Source of the DNA: Methylocystis sp. MJC1
GTDB lineage: Bacteria > Pseudomonadota > Alphaproteobacteria > Rhizobiales > Beijerinckiaceae
Direction: 5' to 3'
Assembly (NCBI RefSeq): GCF_026427715.1
Contig: NZ_CP107558.1
Coordinates: 3,503,001-3,567,000 of the forward strand
DNA length: 64,000 nucleotides
In this document: piece after piece, positions 41,632 to 57,936 of the stretch
Layout: the number at the start of each line of letters is the position of its first letter
Position numbering within the stretch: the stretch's first letter is position 1
Notes under the pieces: generated by a model
Told to the model about the DNA's origin: nothing
Databases searched by the model: none
Seen by the model: the letters and a program-made list of their open reading frames with translations, nothing else
Made by a program: the position numbers and the translations under genes

Positions 41632-41753
41632 CCGCTTCACGGGGAGGAAGCGGGGTCGGGTGGGATAAGGCCCCACCACTATCGTTGCGGCGCGAACCCC
41701 ACCCGGCGGCCTTTGGCCGCCGACCTCCCCGTAAAGGGGAGGTATTTGAGGCG
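41632..41753. repeat. Dispersed repeat D, copy 1
   Basis: Contains AGCGGGGTCGGGTGGG, CGAACCCCACCCGGCGGCC and CGACCTCCCCGTAAAGGGGA as in the copy at 54574-54750. The right part forms a hairpin. It ends a few bases before the rne stop codon. Confidence 0.8.
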
Positions 41754-52022: not shown

Positions 52023-52085
52023 TTGATTCTTCGGGAAAAGCAAGCGCGCGCGGCCGCGCCCGGCCATTCAGGGACTGCGAATTCA

Positions 52086-53330
52086 GTGACGAGACACAGA
52101 AGCCTCCCCGACTATGCCTCGCGGAGATTCCGCTTCGCGGGCAACGCCCTGCTCGAGTTCAACAACCCCTTCTTCGCGCAGATCGACAAGCTCAAGGCGG
52201 ACTTCGAAGCGCAGGGGACGCATTTCGTCAGCTTCGCGAATTACGACTATCTCGGCCTCGCCAATCACCCGCGCATCCGCGAGGAAGCCAAGCGCGAGGT
52301 CGACGGACTCGGCGTCGGGGCGCTCGCCTCGCGTCTCGTGGGCGGCGAACGCACCACACATAAGCAGTTCGAGGCGGAGATCGCCGAATTCATCGGCATG
52401 GAGAGCGCGCTGGCGCTCGTCTCCGGCTATCTCTCGAACGTCACCACCATTTCCTATCTGATGAACGGCAAGCGCGACGCGATCTTCATCGACGAGCTCG
52501 CCCACAACAGCATCGTCTATGGCGCGGAGGGCGCGCCGGCCCATGTCATCAAGTTCCGCCACAACGACATGGATCATCTCGACCATCTGCTGGCGCGCCA
52601 TCGCGAGGAATATCGCAACGTGCTCGTGGTGGTCGAAGGCGTCTACAGCATGGACGGCGACACCGCCGATCTGCCGCGCCTTTACGAAATCAAGGACAAA
52701 TATCAAATCTGGCTGATGGTCGACGAAGCCCATTCGCTCGGCGTTCTGGGCGATCACGGCCGCGGACTTGCCGAGCATCAGGGCGTCGATCCGCAGCGCA
52801 TCGACCTCATCATCGGCACGCTCTCCAAATCGCTCGCCTCCTGCGGCGGCTATATCTGCGCCAAGAAGGAAGTGATCGAGTGGTTCCGCTACACGCTGCC
52901 GGGCTTTGTTTATAGCGTCGGTTTCTCGCCGGTCATTCTCGCAGCGGCCCGCACCGCCTTGCGGCTGATGCAGGAGGAAACCTGGCGCATCGGCAAGCTC
53001 GCGCAGAACGCCGAGCTCTTCCGCCAGGTCGCGCATGAGAACGGCTTCTCCACCGGCCCGGCGATCGGCCGCGGCGTGGTGCCGATCCTTTTCGAGAACG
53101 ATCTCGAGACCATGTGGGCGGCGCGGCATCTGCTCGAAAAGGGCTATTACGTGCCGCCGGTCGTGCGAGTCGGCGTGCCCAAGGACGGACCGCGCCTGCG
53201 CTTCTTCTTTTCGGCGAACCATACGGAGGCTGAAATCCGCGGCGTCATAAAGGCATTGCGGGATACGCCGCCTGTGTCGGAGGAGGCGCAGCGCATCGTG
53301 GCCGCCGCCATGTCCGGCGCCGCCGCCTGA
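52086..53330 (+). CDS. Alpha-oxoamine synthase, serine palmitoyltransferase-like
   Basis: A 414-residue PLP enzyme of the family that joins an amino acid to an acyl thioester with loss of CO2 (serine palmitoyltransferase, BioF, Kbl, HemA). SFANYDYLGLANHP near residues 49-62, His140 (ELAHNS) for ring stacking, FRHND at 157-161, GVYSMDGD at 185-192, VDEAHSLG at 212-219, Schiff-base Lys248 in GTLSKSLASCGGY, and carboxylate arginine Arg372 (LRFFFSANHT) are all present. FRHND and the following genes favour serine palmitoyltransferase over BioF; no biotin gene is near. I started it at the GTG at 52086, since codons before it are unconserved; the ribosome site AGGGA is distant. It would make 3-ketosphinganine as the first step of sphingolipid synthesis (inference). 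Confidence 0.8.
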   Translation: MTRHRSLPDYASRRFRFAGNALLEFNNPFFAQIDKLKADFEAQGTHFVSFANYDYLGLANHPRIREEAKREVDGLGVGALASRLVGGERTTHKQFEAEIAEFIGMESALALVSGYLSNVTTISYLMNGKRDAIFIDELAHNSIVYGAEGAPAHVIKFRHNDMDHLDHLLARHREEYRNVLVVVEGVYSMDGDTADLPRLYEIKDKYQIWLMVDEAHSLGVLGDHGRGLAEHQGVDPQRIDLIIGTLSKSLASCGGYICAKKEVIEWFRYTLPGFVYSVGFSPVILAAARTALRLMQEETWRIGKLAQNAELFRQVAHENGFSTGPAIGRGVVPILFENDLETMWAARHLLEKGYYVPPVVRVGVPKDGPRLRFFFSANHTEAEIRGVIKALRDTPPVSEEAQRIVAAAMSGAAA

Positions 53331-53397
53331 TACGACAGCGCGGGCGCGTCATCATGACGCTTTCCGCGTTCCCCCGCAAAGGCATAAGGAATCAAGC

Positions 53398-54540
53398 ATG
53401 GCGCGAATCGAGATCGTACCGGTCGCTGGGCTCTCGACGTTCACGACCTTCTGCAAGCTGCCGCGCCTTCTCTACAAGGGCGCGCCGGGTTTCGCGCCGC
53501 CGCTCGACATCGAGCGCTGGACGCTCTTCGCCCATATGCTCAACCCCCATTACAAGCTGGTCGAGGATCAGAAATTCCTCGCCCGCCGCGACGGCGAATG
53601 GGTCGGCCGCATTGCCGCGCATGTCTATAAGGAAGGGATCACGCCCGTCGCCGCGAGCCCGGCGCAATTCGGCGCGCTCGACGCCGTCGACGACCTGGAA
53701 GTCGTGCGCGCACTCGTCGAGGCCGCGGAGAATTGGCTGAAGGCGAAGGGCGCGACGCGGATCAACGGCCCCTTCTCGCCGACGATTAACGGCGAAGTCG
53801 GCATGCTGATCGAGGGCTTCGAGGCGACGCCCATGTTCCTCACGCCCTGGCATCCGCCCTATCTCTCGCGCCATTTCGCGGCGCTCGGCTATGAGAAGGC
53901 CAAGGACCTCGTCTCCTATCGCATAGCCATCGACGAGACGTTCCTCAATGAAAAGCCCCTCATCTCGAACCGCAAGGAATGGCGAGACCGTTTGAAGCTT
54001 CGCCCGCTCGATCTCGACAATCTGAAGACGACCGAGACAGCGCTGATGGAAGAGCTCTTCAACGACGGCTGGCGCGATAACTGGGGCTTCGTGCCCTTCA
54101 CCAAGGCGGAATTTGATTCGACCGCCGACGCTTTGAAATATGTCATGCCGCCGGAATTCGGCGTCATGGTGGAACTCGACGGCGAGCCGGTGAGCTTCTT
54201 GGTCGCGCTTCCCAATCTCTTCGAGATCGTCTCCGACTTCGACGGCCGCTTGTTCCCCTTCGGCCTGCCGAAGCTGATCTCGCGCATGCGCAACCACAAG
54301 TTCGACGCCGCGCGCGTCGTGCTGCTCGGCACGCGCAAGGCGCTGCAAAACAGCGCGACGGGCGGCGCCATTCTGCTCTCCATGATCGAGGAGATGCGTC
54401 GCCGCGGCGCCAAGGCCTCGGTCACCCAAATGGAGGCGGGCTGGGTGCTCGAAGACAATATGGCGATGCGCAAGCCGATCGAAATGTTCGGCGGCAAGAT
54501 CGACAAGGTTCACCGGATTTATGAGAAGCGTATCGGTTGA
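53398..54540 (+). CDS. GNAT-fold acyltransferase, candidate bacterial ceramide synthase
   Basis: A 380-residue member of the YghO-like GNAT group: KLPRLLYKGAPGFAPPLDIE near the N-terminus, FLARRDGEWVGRIAAHV near 60-76, NGPFSPTINGEVGMLIEGFE near 121-140, FLTPWHPPYLSRHFAALGYE, and C-terminal SATGGAILLSMIEEMRRRGA then WVLEDNMAM. The bacterial ceramide synthase described in Caulobacter is also a GNAT-fold protein of this size. Together with the flanking genes this suggests N-acylation of a sphingoid base. AAGGA lies seven bases before the ATG, and the gap to the oxoamine synthase is only 67 bases. The assignment is context plus family; there is no direct proof. Confidence 0.7.
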   Translation: MARIEIVPVAGLSTFTTFCKLPRLLYKGAPGFAPPLDIERWTLFAHMLNPHYKLVEDQKFLARRDGEWVGRIAAHVYKEGITPVAASPAQFGALDAVDDLEVVRALVEAAENWLKAKGATRINGPFSPTINGEVGMLIEGFEATPMFLTPWHPPYLSRHFAALGYEKAKDLVSYRIAIDETFLNEKPLISNRKEWRDRLKLRPLDLDNLKTTETALMEELFNDGWRDNWGFVPFTKAEFDSTADALKYVMPPEFGVMVELDGEPVSFLVALPNLFEIVSDFDGRLFPFGLPKLISRMRNHKFDAARVVLLGTRKALQNSATGGAILLSMIEEMRRRGAKASVTQMEAGWVLEDNMAMRKPIEMFGGKIDKVHRIYEKRIG

Positions 54541-54573
54541 GTTCAGGTTCCAGTGGGGGCGTCGGGCGTGAGC

Positions 54574-54750
54574 CAATCCCTCCCCTTTACGGGGAGGGTG
54601 GCCCCGCGCAAGCGGGGTCGGGTGGGGTAAAGCCCCATCAGAGTCATTGCGGCGTGAACCCCACCCGGCGGCCCCGCAGCTAAGTTTACGCAGGCTGCGT
54701 AGACTTGCCTGCATCCGCCGACCTCCCCGTAAAGGGGAGGTATTGGAGGG
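54574..54750. repeat. Dispersed repeat D, copy 2 with inner insertion
   Basis: Bounded by CCTCCCCTTTACGGGGAGG and CCTCCCCGTAAAGGGGAGG, with GCGGGGTCGGGTGGGG and GTGAACCCCACCCGGCGGCC inside. Relative to copy 1 a stretch of about 40 bases (AGCTAAGTTTACGCAGGCTG and following) is inserted before the right hairpin. Confidence 0.8.
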
Positions 54751-54811
54751 CTAACGACGCCAGTTACTATCCACCCGATTGCTCCGCTTCCAACTGAAGG
54801 AAACGTGATCC

Positions 54812-55798
54812 ATGAACGGCATTTCGGTCACCGCCCAGGGCGCCGACCGCTCGCATGTCGAGCGCCGCCGCTTGATCTTGGAAAAATATCCGCAGGTGCG
54901 CGAGCTTTTCGGCAGAGACCCAGTGACCTTCAAGATCACGGCCGGCATCTTCGCGGGCCAATTCGTGATCGCGGCCGTCATGGGCTGGCTCGGGTTCTCC
55001 TATTGGTGGCTGTCGCTGCTGCTGGCGATCTGCGTCGGCGCCTTCGCGAACCACGCGAATTTCGTCATCATCCACGACGCGATTCATAATTGCGTCTTCG
55101 AGGACCCGCTCGCCAATAAATGGACGGCGATCCTCGCCGATCTCCCCAATGGCTTCCCCACGGCGATGGGCTTCCGCTGCTATCACATCAAGCACCACTC
55201 GCATCTCTCGGCCTATGACTATGACGCCGACGTGCCGAGCCAGTGGGAAGTGGAGTGGGTCGGCAATAGCGCTTGGCGCAAGGCCGCCTGGCTTTTTGCC
55301 TTTCCCGCCATCCAGCTCGCGCGCCTGTCGCGGCTGAAGGGCACCGTGCCGATCATGGGCAAATGGACCTATATCAACATCGCGGTCATCATCGCCTTCG
55401 ATCTCTTCATGCTCTGGGCCTTCGGCCCCAACGCCTTGCTCTATCTGTTCCTCTCCTTCTGGTTTTCGGTTGGCGGGCTGCATCCATTGAGTGCGCGCTG
55501 GCTGCAGGAGCATTTCGCCTTCGGGCCCGATCAGGGCACATTCGATTATTACGGCCCGCTCAACAAGCTCGCGCTCAATATCGGCTATCACAACGAGCAT
55601 CACGACTTTCATGAGATTCCCTGGAACCGCCTGCCGGAGCTCACGGCCATGGCGCCGGAGTTCTACGACACGCTGCGCTGCCACCGCTCCTGGTTTGCGC
55701 TGCTCGTCACCTTCATCTTCGATCCGACCTATTCGCTCGGCACGCGGTCGGTAAATGTCACGCAAGCGGCGCAGCAGATCGCTGCCCCGGCGGAGTAA
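54812..55798 (+). CDS. Sphingolipid delta-4 desaturase-like membrane enzyme (DEGS family)
   Basis: A 328-residue di-iron membrane desaturase. His boxes: H88DAIH92, HIKHHSH at 125-131, and HNEHH at 260-264. The sequence follows eukaryotic DEGS1 closely outside the boxes as well: ERRRLILEKYPQVRELFG near the N-terminus, GGLHPLSARW, then YYGPLNKLALNIGYHNEHHD and LPELTAMAPEFYDTL near 246-288. That C-terminal block is diagnostic for dihydroceramide delta-4 desaturases rather than DesA or acyl-CoA desaturases. It would introduce a double bond into the long-chain base of a ceramide at the membrane; regiochemistry is inferred from homology. AAGGA lies about ten bases before the ATG. The hydroxylase gene follows after four bases. 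Confidence 0.85.
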   Translation: MNGISVTAQGADRSHVERRRLILEKYPQVRELFGRDPVTFKITAGIFAGQFVIAAVMGWLGFSYWWLSLLLAICVGAFANHANFVIIHDAIHNCVFEDPLANKWTAILADLPNGFPTAMGFRCYHIKHHSHLSAYDYDADVPSQWEVEWVGNSAWRKAAWLFAFPAIQLARLSRLKGTVPIMGKWTYINIAVIIAFDLFMLWAFGPNALLYLFLSFWFSVGGLHPLSARWLQEHFAFGPDQGTFDYYGPLNKLALNIGYHNEHHDFHEIPWNRLPELTAMAPEFYDTLRCHRSWFALLVTFIFDPTYSLGTRSVNVTQAAQQIAAPAE

Positions 55799-55802
55799 AA
55801 TC

Positions 55803-56450
55803 ATGACGCAGGACACACGCACAGAAGCGCTGGACGCCTCGCCGCGCATTTTCGAGAACGACCTTCTCGACCGTTTCTCGCGCGTGCATCACCTCACGCC
55901 CGTGATCATCTACACGCCGATCATTCTGGGCCTGCTCTTCTATTCCTTGTCGCTGCAGGGCGCAGGGCTCGTTCTGCTCGGCCTCGTGATCGGCTATGTC
56001 GCCTGGACGCTGACCGAATATTTCGGCCACCGCTATCTCTTCCACACGGTGTTTCCGCTGCCTTTCGGCTTCGGACCGCGCTTCCAGTTCCTGATCCACG
56101 GCGTGCATCACATCTATCCGAGCGACCCGCTGCGGCTCGTCATGCCGCCGCTGCTCTCCGCGCCGATCATGCTCATCGCGCTGACGATCATCCGGCTGAT
56201 CTTCGGCGCGACCTTCGCCTGGCCGGTGCTCGCAGGCTTCATGGCCGGCTATGTGGCCTATGACTGCGTGCATTACTGGACGCATCACGGCCAGCCGACC
56301 TCCGATTTCGGCAAATTGGTGAAGCGCCTGCATATGCTTCACCATTTCCGCGACGCCGAGAAGGGTTTCGGCGTGCATGCGATCTGGTGGGACTATGTCT
56401 TCGGCACGGCCTACCAGAAGGGCGAGACGCCGGGGACCAAGGCCGTTTGA
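55803..56450 (+). CDS. Fatty acid 2-hydroxylase-like membrane enzyme (FA2H family)
   Basis: A 215-residue di-iron hydroxylase of the sterol desaturase superfamily with four predicted helices. Histidine motifs run in order: LTEYFGHRYLFH at 70-81, HGVHH at 99-103, YDCVHYWTHHG at 153-163, and HMLHHF at 177-182. SDPLRLVMPPLLS, FGVHAIWWDYVFGT and overall spacing match FA2H/Scs7, which put a hydroxyl on C2 of the ceramide acyl chain; carotenoid and sterol enzymes of the superfamily differ there. It lacks the cytochrome b5 domain of the eukaryotic form. GGAG overlapping the desaturase stop region lies seven bases before the ATG, so the two are coupled. The substrate is inferred from homology and context. 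Confidence 0.85.
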   Translation: MTQDTRTEALDASPRIFENDLLDRFSRVHHLTPVIIYTPIILGLLFYSLSLQGAGLVLLGLVIGYVAWTLTEYFGHRYLFHTVFPLPFGFGPRFQFLIHGVHHIYPSDPLRLVMPPLLSAPIMLIALTIIRLIFGATFAWPVLAGFMAGYVAYDCVHYWTHHGQPTSDFGKLVKRLHMLHHFRDAEKGFGVHAIWWDYVFGTAYQKGETPGTKAV

Positions 56451-56520: not shown

Positions 56521-56592
56521 AAAGTAACGCTTTTGTGAGTTTCCCCATCAGCGGCCCCGATTTTGCTTTTTGCTGCCGGAAATGGACCCGGC

Positions 56593-57936
56593 ATGAAAAC
56601 CTTTCTCGATTGGTCGGCTTACGACACCTACGGCATTGGCGACGCCTATTCGGGCATCCCGGCCACGGGCGGCAATTACGCCAAGGCTGTCGCTGTGTGC
56701 ATGCACAGCCGCGATTGTCAGAAAGCCGGCAAGGGCGTCATGTGCCCGAGCTACCGCATCACCGGCGACCCCAAACATTCCACCGAAGCGCGCGTCGCGG
56801 CCTTCAAGGCCGCCCTCAACGACCCCGCCAATGAGCGCGCCTTCGCGGATCCGCGCCTCGCGGAAGCGATGGATTTGTGCGTCTCCTGCAAGGCCTGCAA
56901 GAAGGAATGCCCCAGCGCCGTCGATATGACGCTGATCAAGACGGAATATCTCGCCCAGCGCCACGCCATCACGGGGGTTCCGTTGCGCACGCGGCTCTTC
57001 GGCGGCGTGCCGGAATGGACCGGCCGGCATCGCGCTGTGCTGGGCTTCGCCATCCGCCTGCGCAATCGTTTCTCGGCGCTCGCCAAATTTGCGGAGAGAC
57101 GGCTCGGGATCACGGCGCGCCGCCCGCTTCCGGAGCTGGCGGTGAAACCCTTTACTCCCGCCAAAGCGGCAAGCGCGGGCGCGCGCGGCGACGTCATTCT
57201 GTTCGTCGACACTTTCTGCCATCACTTCGACCCCGAGATCGCCGAGGCCGCCGTCGCGGTGCTGGAACACGCGGGCTACAGCGTGCGCTTCGCCAGACCC
57301 GCGCCGACCGACGCCGAGCCCAACCGGCCGCTCTGCTGCGGTCGCACCTATCTCACGACCGGCATGGCGGATAAGGCGAAGGGCGAAGCCAGCCGCGTTC
57401 TCGCCGCCTTCCGAGGCGCGATTGCGGCCAAGACGCCGATCATCGGGCTGGAGCCGTCCTGCCTTCTCTCCTTGCGCGACGAGCTTTACAGCCTGGGACT
57501 GGGGCCCGAGGTCGGCGATCTCGGCAAGCAGCTTTACCTCTTCGAGGAATTTCTGGCCCGCGAGCATCAAAACAACGGCCTGCGGCTGGAGCTGAAACCG
57601 CTGGATTTGCCCAAGGCGCTGCTGCACGGCCATTGCCACCAGAAAGCCTTCGGCGTGATGAAGGCGACGCGCAAGGTGTTGAGCTGGATACCGGGCTTTT
57701 CCTTCGAGGTGATCGACTCGAGCTGCTGCGGCATGGCGGGAAGCTTCGGCCTGGAGGCCGAGCATTACGAGGCCTCCATGGCGATGGCCGAGCAGTCGCT
57801 ACTGCCGGCGGTGCGCGCCGCGTCGGAAGACACGCCGCTGATCGCCAACGGCTTCTCCTGCCGTCACCAGATCGAGCACGGCAGCGGCCGGAAAGCCCGG
57901 CACATCGCGCTGCTGCTGCGCGACGCGCTCGCGTGA
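56593..57936 (+). CDS. Fe-S oxidoreductase with two CCG domains (GlpC/HdrD-like)
   Basis: A 447-residue protein. It has one four-cysteine ferredoxin-like motif near residues 97-108 (CVSCKACKKECPS), further cysteines earlier (CMHSRDCQKAGKGVMCPSYR at 36-55), and two cysteine-rich CCG domains (PLCCGRTYLTTG near 250 and SSCCGMAGSFG near 380). The architecture equals the C-terminal half of fused FAD-linked dehydrogenases of the D-lactate or D-2-hydroxyglutarate type, but no FAD domain is present or adjacent. It may pass electrons from an unlinked flavoprotein, or supply the neighbouring di-iron enzymes; the latter is speculation. The ATG at 56593 has a weak GGA-rich leader. Confidence 0.85.
   Translation: MKTFLDWSAYDTYGIGDAYSGIPATGGNYAKAVAVCMHSRDCQKAGKGVMCPSYRITGDPKHSTEARVAAFKAALNDPANERAFADPRLAEAMDLCVSCKACKKECPSAVDMTLIKTEYLAQRHAITGVPLRTRLFGGVPEWTGRHRAVLGFAIRLRNRFSALAKFAERRLGITARRPLPELAVKPFTPAKAASAGARGDVILFVDTFCHHFDPEIAEAAVAVLEHAGYSVRFARPAPTDAEPNRPLCCGRTYLTTGMADKAKGEASRVLAAFRGAIAAKTPIIGLEPSCLLSLRDELYSLGLGPEVGDLGKQLYLFEEFLAREHQNNGLRLELKPLDLPKALLHGHCHQKAFGVMKATRKVLSWIPGFSFEVIDSSCCGMAGSFGLEAEHYEASMAMAEQSLLPAVRAASEDTPLIANGFSCRHQIEHGSGRKARHIALLLRDALA

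Follow-up and report, generated by a model that had tools for sequence, protein, structure and literature searches.

What does a cluster of four bacterial genes make when its products resemble enzymes of sphingolipid formation, two of them with eukaryote-like relatives? The cluster lies in a 64,000-nucleotide stretch of the Methylocystis sp. MJC1 genome (C1:3503001-3567000; hereafter the window), and an initial annotation had read it as a ceramide pathway with a delta-4 desaturase and a 2-hydroxylase. Our analysis leads us to propose, with a probability of roughly 0.6, that the four genes encode the core and tailoring steps of a ceramide pathway whose remaining genes lie in another operon ~74 kb upstream. 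The four genes are as follows:

52086..53330, + strand: AOS, oxoamine synthase (serine-palmitoyltransferase-like, pyridoxal-phosphate (PLP)-dependent); 414 amino acids (aa); PF00155
53398..54540, + strand: AT, tandem-GNAT N-acyltransferase, similar to bacterial ceramide synthase (bCerS); 380 aa
54812..55798, + strand: DES, DEGS-family membrane desaturase (sphingolipid delta-4 desaturase / C4-hydroxylase family); 328 aa; PF08557 and PF00487
55803..56450, + strand: FAH, Scs7/FA2H-type fatty acid 2-hydroxylase lacking a cytochrome b5 domain; 215 aa; PF04116

The genes are consecutive on one strand (52086-56450) and none contains an internal stop, so the same-strand set described in the initial annotation is intact. 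FAH begins 4 bases after the DES stop codon, and the AOS start codon is ambiguous (GTG at 52086 or TTG at 52023). Judged by sequence, the gene system is real, conserved and coherent, and its family-level identities are firm except for that of AOS within its superfamily; the chemistry is what we infer from them. Gene families, conserved residues, synteny and co-occurrence were observed directly.

Conservation was assessed by searching named genomes with the desaturase; of at least 568 relatives found, the 80 best were retained as loci: 57 alphaproteobacterial (L010-L065 and L070), 10 from Verrucomicrobia/Acidobacteria and 13 from Bacteroidota. By score thresholds that we set ourselves, AOS was called in 60 of the 80 loci, AT in 60 and FAH in 45. 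AOS, AT and DES occur together in 51 of the 57 alphaproteobacterial loci, and a contig end truncates four of the six exceptions (L035, L039, L056 and L059). FAH was identified in 35 of the 57, and 32 have all four genes on a single strand in the same order as the window, answering the initial annotation's suggestion to look for this order in other bacteria. Of the 13 loci whose titles name Methylocapsa, Methylocella, Methylovirgula or Beijerinckia, 12 lack FAH in the vicinity of the cluster. The set recurs independently in the Verrucomicrobia/Acidobacteria loci in a different arrangement, DES-FAH-AOS-AT, with DES-FAH in 10/10, AOS in addition in 9/10 and AT as well in 7/10; the remaining three lie on short contigs, which carry two or three of the four genes. 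Only one of the ten, L081, is titled Acidobacteria, and it is very like the other nine.

The Verrucomicrobia clusters (L074 13085-16322; L088 13080-16435) also carry a CDP-alcohol phosphatidyltransferase gene between AOS and AT. The assignment to PF01066 was tested in L088, and L074, L068 and L081 look alike by eye. A myo-inositol-1-phosphate synthase gene (PF01658) adjoins the cluster in L074. These clusters may perhaps direct ceramide phosphoinositol synthesis.

The tailoring enzymes and the acyltransferase

DES scores 37.1 bits against PF08557 (Lipid_DES; cut-off 23) and 83.5 against PF00487 (FA_desaturase). Like the eukaryotic enzymes, it has the Lipid_DES domain and the three histidine boxes: H88, H92, H128, H129, H260, H263 and H264 are invariant among 29 sequences that include vertebrate DES1/DES2, and H125 is kept in more than 90% of them. 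The bacterial protein nevertheless stands apart from DEGS1/DEGS2 in sequence, at 32-37% identity to 14 vertebrate DES1/DES2 (E 4e-48 to 5e-59). A BLAST search with DES (E up to 0.01) recovered DES1/DES2 and did not recover the two other desaturases of its own genome. PF08557 is rare: it was matched in 5 of 398 genomes from the phylum and in 0 of 14 control genomes; Caulobacter, one of these controls, differs from Methylocystis in this respect. The phylogeny against eukaryotic DEGS that the initial annotation had called for was built from 46 of the 80 loci, L140 and 14 of 120 matches to a eukaryotic query, those bearing names among the 120 listed all being vertebrates. The tree is in effect unrooted, its outgroup branches being too long for rooting. 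The closest named desaturase, from Methylocystis sp. Sn-Cys, is 98% identical. Since a source database already labels some close homologues 'sphingolipid delta-4 desaturase', the annotation of this single gene is not new; what our analysis contributes is the gene cluster, the second operon and the co-occurrence of the two.

These same comparisons bear on what DES does. The pathway could be the one proposed with DES acting chiefly as a C4-hydroxylase, as DES2 does, in which case the products would be phytoceramide-type 2-hydroxy lipids instead of delta-4 ceramides. The family includes dual desaturase/C4-monooxygenases, a label that the source database gives to some close bacterial homologues of DES, and DES is as close to DES2 as to DES1, its top vertebrate match being a DES2 (36%). 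Other close homologues carry the delta-4 desaturase label, however, and no sequence feature that we examined separates delta-4 desaturation from C4 hydroxylation. We regard a chiefly C4-hydroxylating DES as possible but unlikely. The initial annotation's call of a DEGS delta-4 desaturase is borne out for the DEGS domain and motifs, but sequence does not separate delta-4 from C4 chemistry.

FAH has PF04116 as its sole Pfam domain (58.3 bits), and its PDB match is Scs7 (4zr1, E 2.6e-23), with which it shares the hydroxylase metal motifs. Histidines 76, 81, 99, 102, 103, 157, 161, 162, 177, 180 and 181 are invariant in 13 bacterial sequences including that of the window. In a tree from which 5 of 22 loci were left out, having given no FAH, the protein groups with Scs7 and not with the other FA_hydroxylase clade found at AT loci; in line with this, Scs7 reaches 83-120 bits with 10 homologues from the FAH group, compared with 37-60 bits for 7 PF04116 proteins from AT loci. 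At 1e-4, phmmer matched neither of the genome's two other PF04116 loci, and the FAH tree does not include them. The FA2H-type hydroxylase of the initial annotation is upheld by the domain, the Scs7 histidine motifs and the tree. Unlike eukaryotic Scs7/FA2H, the 215-residue protein has no fused N-terminal cytochrome b5 domain; such a domain is reportedly not universal, an Arabidopsis Scs7/FA2H homologue being described, in the title of a reference, as lacking it.

The predicted structure of AT is a tandem GNAT, and the GNAT fold is also that of bCerS. Its structural neighbours include mycothiol synthase and N-myristoyltransferase, the latter an enzyme whose substrate is a long-chain acyl-CoA. 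AT matched no Pfam or NCBIfam family. Of 289 genomes from the class, 41, this one included, encode a relative of AT, and a gene resembling serine palmitoyltransferase (SPT) lies within 20 kb in 9 of the 20 alphaproteobacterial AT loci retrieved; at two scanned AT loci the SPT-like genes, ~1 and 4 kb from AT, score above the NCBIfam SPT cut-offs. The predicted fold and this proximity favour the initial annotation's placement of AT in the bCerS group.

The other FA_hydroxylase (PF04116) clade occurs at 7 of 10 alphaproteobacterial AT loci examined (for example L127 10081-10845; also L120, L121, L124, L128, L131 and L133), and it adjoins AT in all six loci where its position was determined.

A second operon with candidate carrier protein, reductase and glycosyltransferase genes

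The initial annotation had pointed out that the window holds neither a ketoreductase nor an acyl carrier protein (ACP) gene. Candidates for both lie in the same genome:

C1:3475610-3481241, + strand: operon ACP-KS-DH-MaoC-KR-GT21-GT2, ~74 kb upstream of AOS

Here KS is a FabF-like ketosynthase, KR a classical short-chain dehydrogenase/reductase (SDR) and DH a label for a small protein, whose copy in this genome has no Pfam family; GT21 and GT2 are glycosyltransferase (GT) genes. In relatives the operon genes abut AOS-AT-DES. Among the 80 desaturase loci we found GT in 17, KR and MaoC in 16 each, DH in 15, KS in 13 and ACP in 12, with all six in 11. The 17 loci with GT2 beside the desaturase are all from Beijerinckiaceae or their kin, and GT21 stands amid the operon genes at three (L039-L041). 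Among 199 family genomes, 52 encode the operon GT2 (E 1e-60) and 52 encode DES (E 1e-40); 51 genomes have both, and one genome each has just one. By genus (43), nine have DES and GT, one has DES only and 33 have neither (Fisher 1.8e-8, uncorrected for descent). In 19 of these 51 genomes, DES and the operon GT2 share a contig and lie within 6 kb of each other. A KR tree was built from 10 of the 16 cluster loci with KR and 10 of the genome's 13 other SDR matches; in it, reductases that adjoin AT in three genomes from a different family joined the KR clade with modest support (88/79). Because the operon is present in this genome, is linked to the cluster in relatives and co-occurs with the desaturase across the family, the ketoreductase and ACP absent from the window very probably exist in the genome, and a sugar headgroup is predicted.

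The operon GT21 was considered as the hopanoid enzyme HpnI and rejected, as it scores 156 bits against a cut-off of 310 and the true HpnI (392 bits) lies elsewhere in the genome. The genome's top Glyco_transf_21 match is at L171 1168-2310 (C1:3129894); it is not HpnI either (170 bits, cut-off 310), and its product is a second candidate ceramide glycosyltransferase. Further copies of KS (L166 8328-9545, C1:405327; 66% to the L053 ketosynthase) and KR (L167 9217-9996, C1:971216; 48%) stand away from the other operon genes.

The proposed pathway and the evidence weighed

In the ceramide pathway that we propose, the dedicated ACP, the ketosynthase and the dehydratase-like proteins would provide an acyl chain, which AOS would condense with an amino acid (most probably serine) to give a 3-keto long-chain base. 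The GNAT-fold AT would N-acylate this base, KR, a probably cytoplasmic reductase of the SDR type, would reduce the 3-keto group, DES would desaturate (or hydroxylate) C4, and FAH would hydroxylate C2 of the acyl chain. Addition of a sugar by GT21/GT2 would then yield a glycosylceramide resembling fungal and animal ones. Each reaction, the reaction order, the amino acid and the headgroup are predictions from the gene families and their context.

The weakest link in this scheme is the amino acid used by AOS. The protein belongs to the alpha-oxoamine synthase superfamily (PF00155, 162.5 bits), having the PLP lysine and the stacking histidine; K248, H140 and R372, the residues on which the initial annotation based its SPT-like label, are all in place, as is a DEAH motif at 213. 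Several results nevertheless weigh against the ceramide reading, and two of them concern AOS. Its scores against the three NCBIfam SPT models NF047599, NF047600 and NF047603 are 293, 288 and 210 bits, under cut-offs of 500, 640 and 670. In a tree of 40 rows (28 of 60 AOS-bearing loci, 8 of 9 SPT-like loci, with the truncated L136 excluded, and three paralogues of the genome, one of which, L003, is ALAS; the program flagged long branches), the window AOS and 19 rows from Methylocystaceae/Beijerinckiaceae form one clade (support 100/100), and the 8 rows from alphaproteobacterial SPT-type loci form another (100/99) that does not include it. Two of these 8 were scored against NCBIfam, L138 at 835 (cut-off 670) and L122 at 644 (cut-off 500). 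The window clade is also apart from the paralogues and from the AOS of the Verrucomicrobia/Acidobacteria clusters, which belong to a different clade. AOS could instead take glycine, alanine or another amino acid, giving N-acyl amino-ketone or amino-alcohol lipids that are related to sphingolipids but are not true ones. All 14 listed NCBIfam scores are under their curated cut-offs, the highest being that for BioF (339.7, cut-off 426), and these values and the separate clade speak for such an enzyme. The top PDB match, by contrast, is a serine palmitoyltransferase (3a2b, E 1.6e-62), narrowly ahead of E. coli KBL (2.9e-60), and the partners AT, DES and FAH resemble families that act on ceramide; we judge use of another amino acid distinctly unlikely. 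Because AOS is under every curated SPT cut-off and in a clade of its own, serine use is read from context, and the SPT-like label of the initial annotation is kept for the residues but not for the curated models or the tree.

The link between the desaturase and its neighbours is also not universal. AOS, AT and FAH were found in none of the 13 Bacteroidota loci (L066, L069, L072, L073, L075, L077-L080 and L082-L085), in the sequence examined, nor in L140, in the alphaproteobacterial L070, where the desaturase is alone, or in Beijerinckia mobilis L060, where it adjoins KR/GT genes; the scan of these loci carried two positive controls, both of which were detected. The desaturase family is therefore not always tied locally to AOS, AT and FAH. 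DES and FAH might then act on the acyl chains of phospholipids, lipid A or hopanoids and be mere neighbours of an amino-lipid operon, the more so as the membrane desaturase and hydroxylase superfamilies are functionally diverse. Yet the linkage of DES/FAH to AOS and AT recurs in two gene orders in distant phyla, and PF08557 in DES and the grouping of FAH with Scs7 point to ceramide, so that we hold this alternative to be quite improbable. A comparison of the Bacteroidota desaturases with the Bacteroidota known for unsaturated sphingoid bases would be worthwhile.

The ceramide pathway also has to accommodate the patchy distribution of DES in its own family (10 of 43 genera) and the result for cytochrome b5, none of which was found in a search of the genome. 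Cytochrome b5 was accordingly rejected as electron donor, and electrons for DES and FAH, both di-metal enzymes, must come from another source. The genome search for a CerR-like reductase recommended in the initial annotation failed to give a convincing orthologue, yielding five weak matches (best 63 bits, 32%) with a query that was the epimerase-family gene beside the curated SPT in L138 and not Caulobacter CerR. In the open-licence literature, available mostly as titles and the first lines of abstracts, no sphingolipids of type II methanotrophs and no lipid report for any carrier appear. The same material (among it PMC11334938, PMC11324152, PMC11765627, PMC5155239, PMC11087976, PMC6460317 and PMC12134224, likewise in part) reports no bacterial DEGS/FA2H relative in a ceramide cluster.

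We regard the gene set as a variant of bacterial ceramide synthesis. The Caulobacter/Rhodobacteria pathway comprises Spt, AcpR, AasR, bCerS and CerR (PMC11087976, PMC11324152), and the Methylocystis set shares with it an AOS, an acyltransferase, a dedicated ACP and a reductase; AT is moreover homologous to genes near curated SPTs. The differences are that the window AOS belongs to another clade, that CerR is NDUFA9-like whereas the candidate reductase here is of the classical SDR type and encoded in an operon with KS and MaoC, and that acyl hydroxylation in Caulobacter is assigned to CC_0202 of the DesA family (PMC11324152) but here to an Scs7/FA2H-type enzyme. Acylation is proposed to precede reduction in Caulobacter, and the reductase there is described as periplasmic (PMC11087976). 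The initial annotation's ceramide reading gains from the AT, DES and FAH families and from the reductase and ACP candidates, but does not extend to serine use or to a choice between delta-4 and C4 chemistry. From another phylum, sphingolipids of Flectobacillus (Bacteroidota) have reportedly been described chemically with the two marks proposed here, a base with a 4E double bond and an acyl chain hydroxylated at C2; we know of no identification of the enzymes responsible.

A wider proposal, to which we give about even odds, is that type II methanotrophs, along with certain other Beijerinckiaceae, produce eukaryote-type glycosphingolipids (delta-4 unsaturated and 2-hydroxylated) by way of their own AOS lineage, an ACP/KS operon, a classical SDR and cytochrome-b5-free kin of DEGS/FA2H, and that the same tailoring pair joined a second AOS lineage in Verrucomicrobia/Acidobacteria. 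If so, well-studied methane oxidisers would carry a full ceramide set with two marks considered typical of eukaryotes, which would bear on the origin of sphingolipid tailoring, and 4E, 2-hydroxy ceramides of soils and sediments would not necessarily be eukaryotic markers. Small bacterial relatives of DEGS/FA2H would become available for structural and mechanistic work, including that on a new electron donor. The species-named carriers Methylocystis rosea, Methylosinus sporium, Methylocapsa palsarum and Beijerinckia mobilis make the proposal directly testable.

Flanks and spacing of the cluster

Upstream of AOS is a divergently oriented ABC/CcmB gene pair. The gene downstream of FAH is:

56563-57936: Fe-S oxidoreductase

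It was considered as a fifth cluster gene and electron donor, and rejected: it adjoins the cluster in L010 alone among the 80 loci, and elsewhere gave one weak match (L032, 54 bits, 27%, ~9 kb from the cluster). The AT-DES gap measures 271 bases in the window and less than 80 in L012-L034. A palindromic repeat lies in this gap at 54579-54740, with a further site at 41718-41742; its 25-base arm has 3 matches in the window, against a mean of 0.00 in shuffled sequence.

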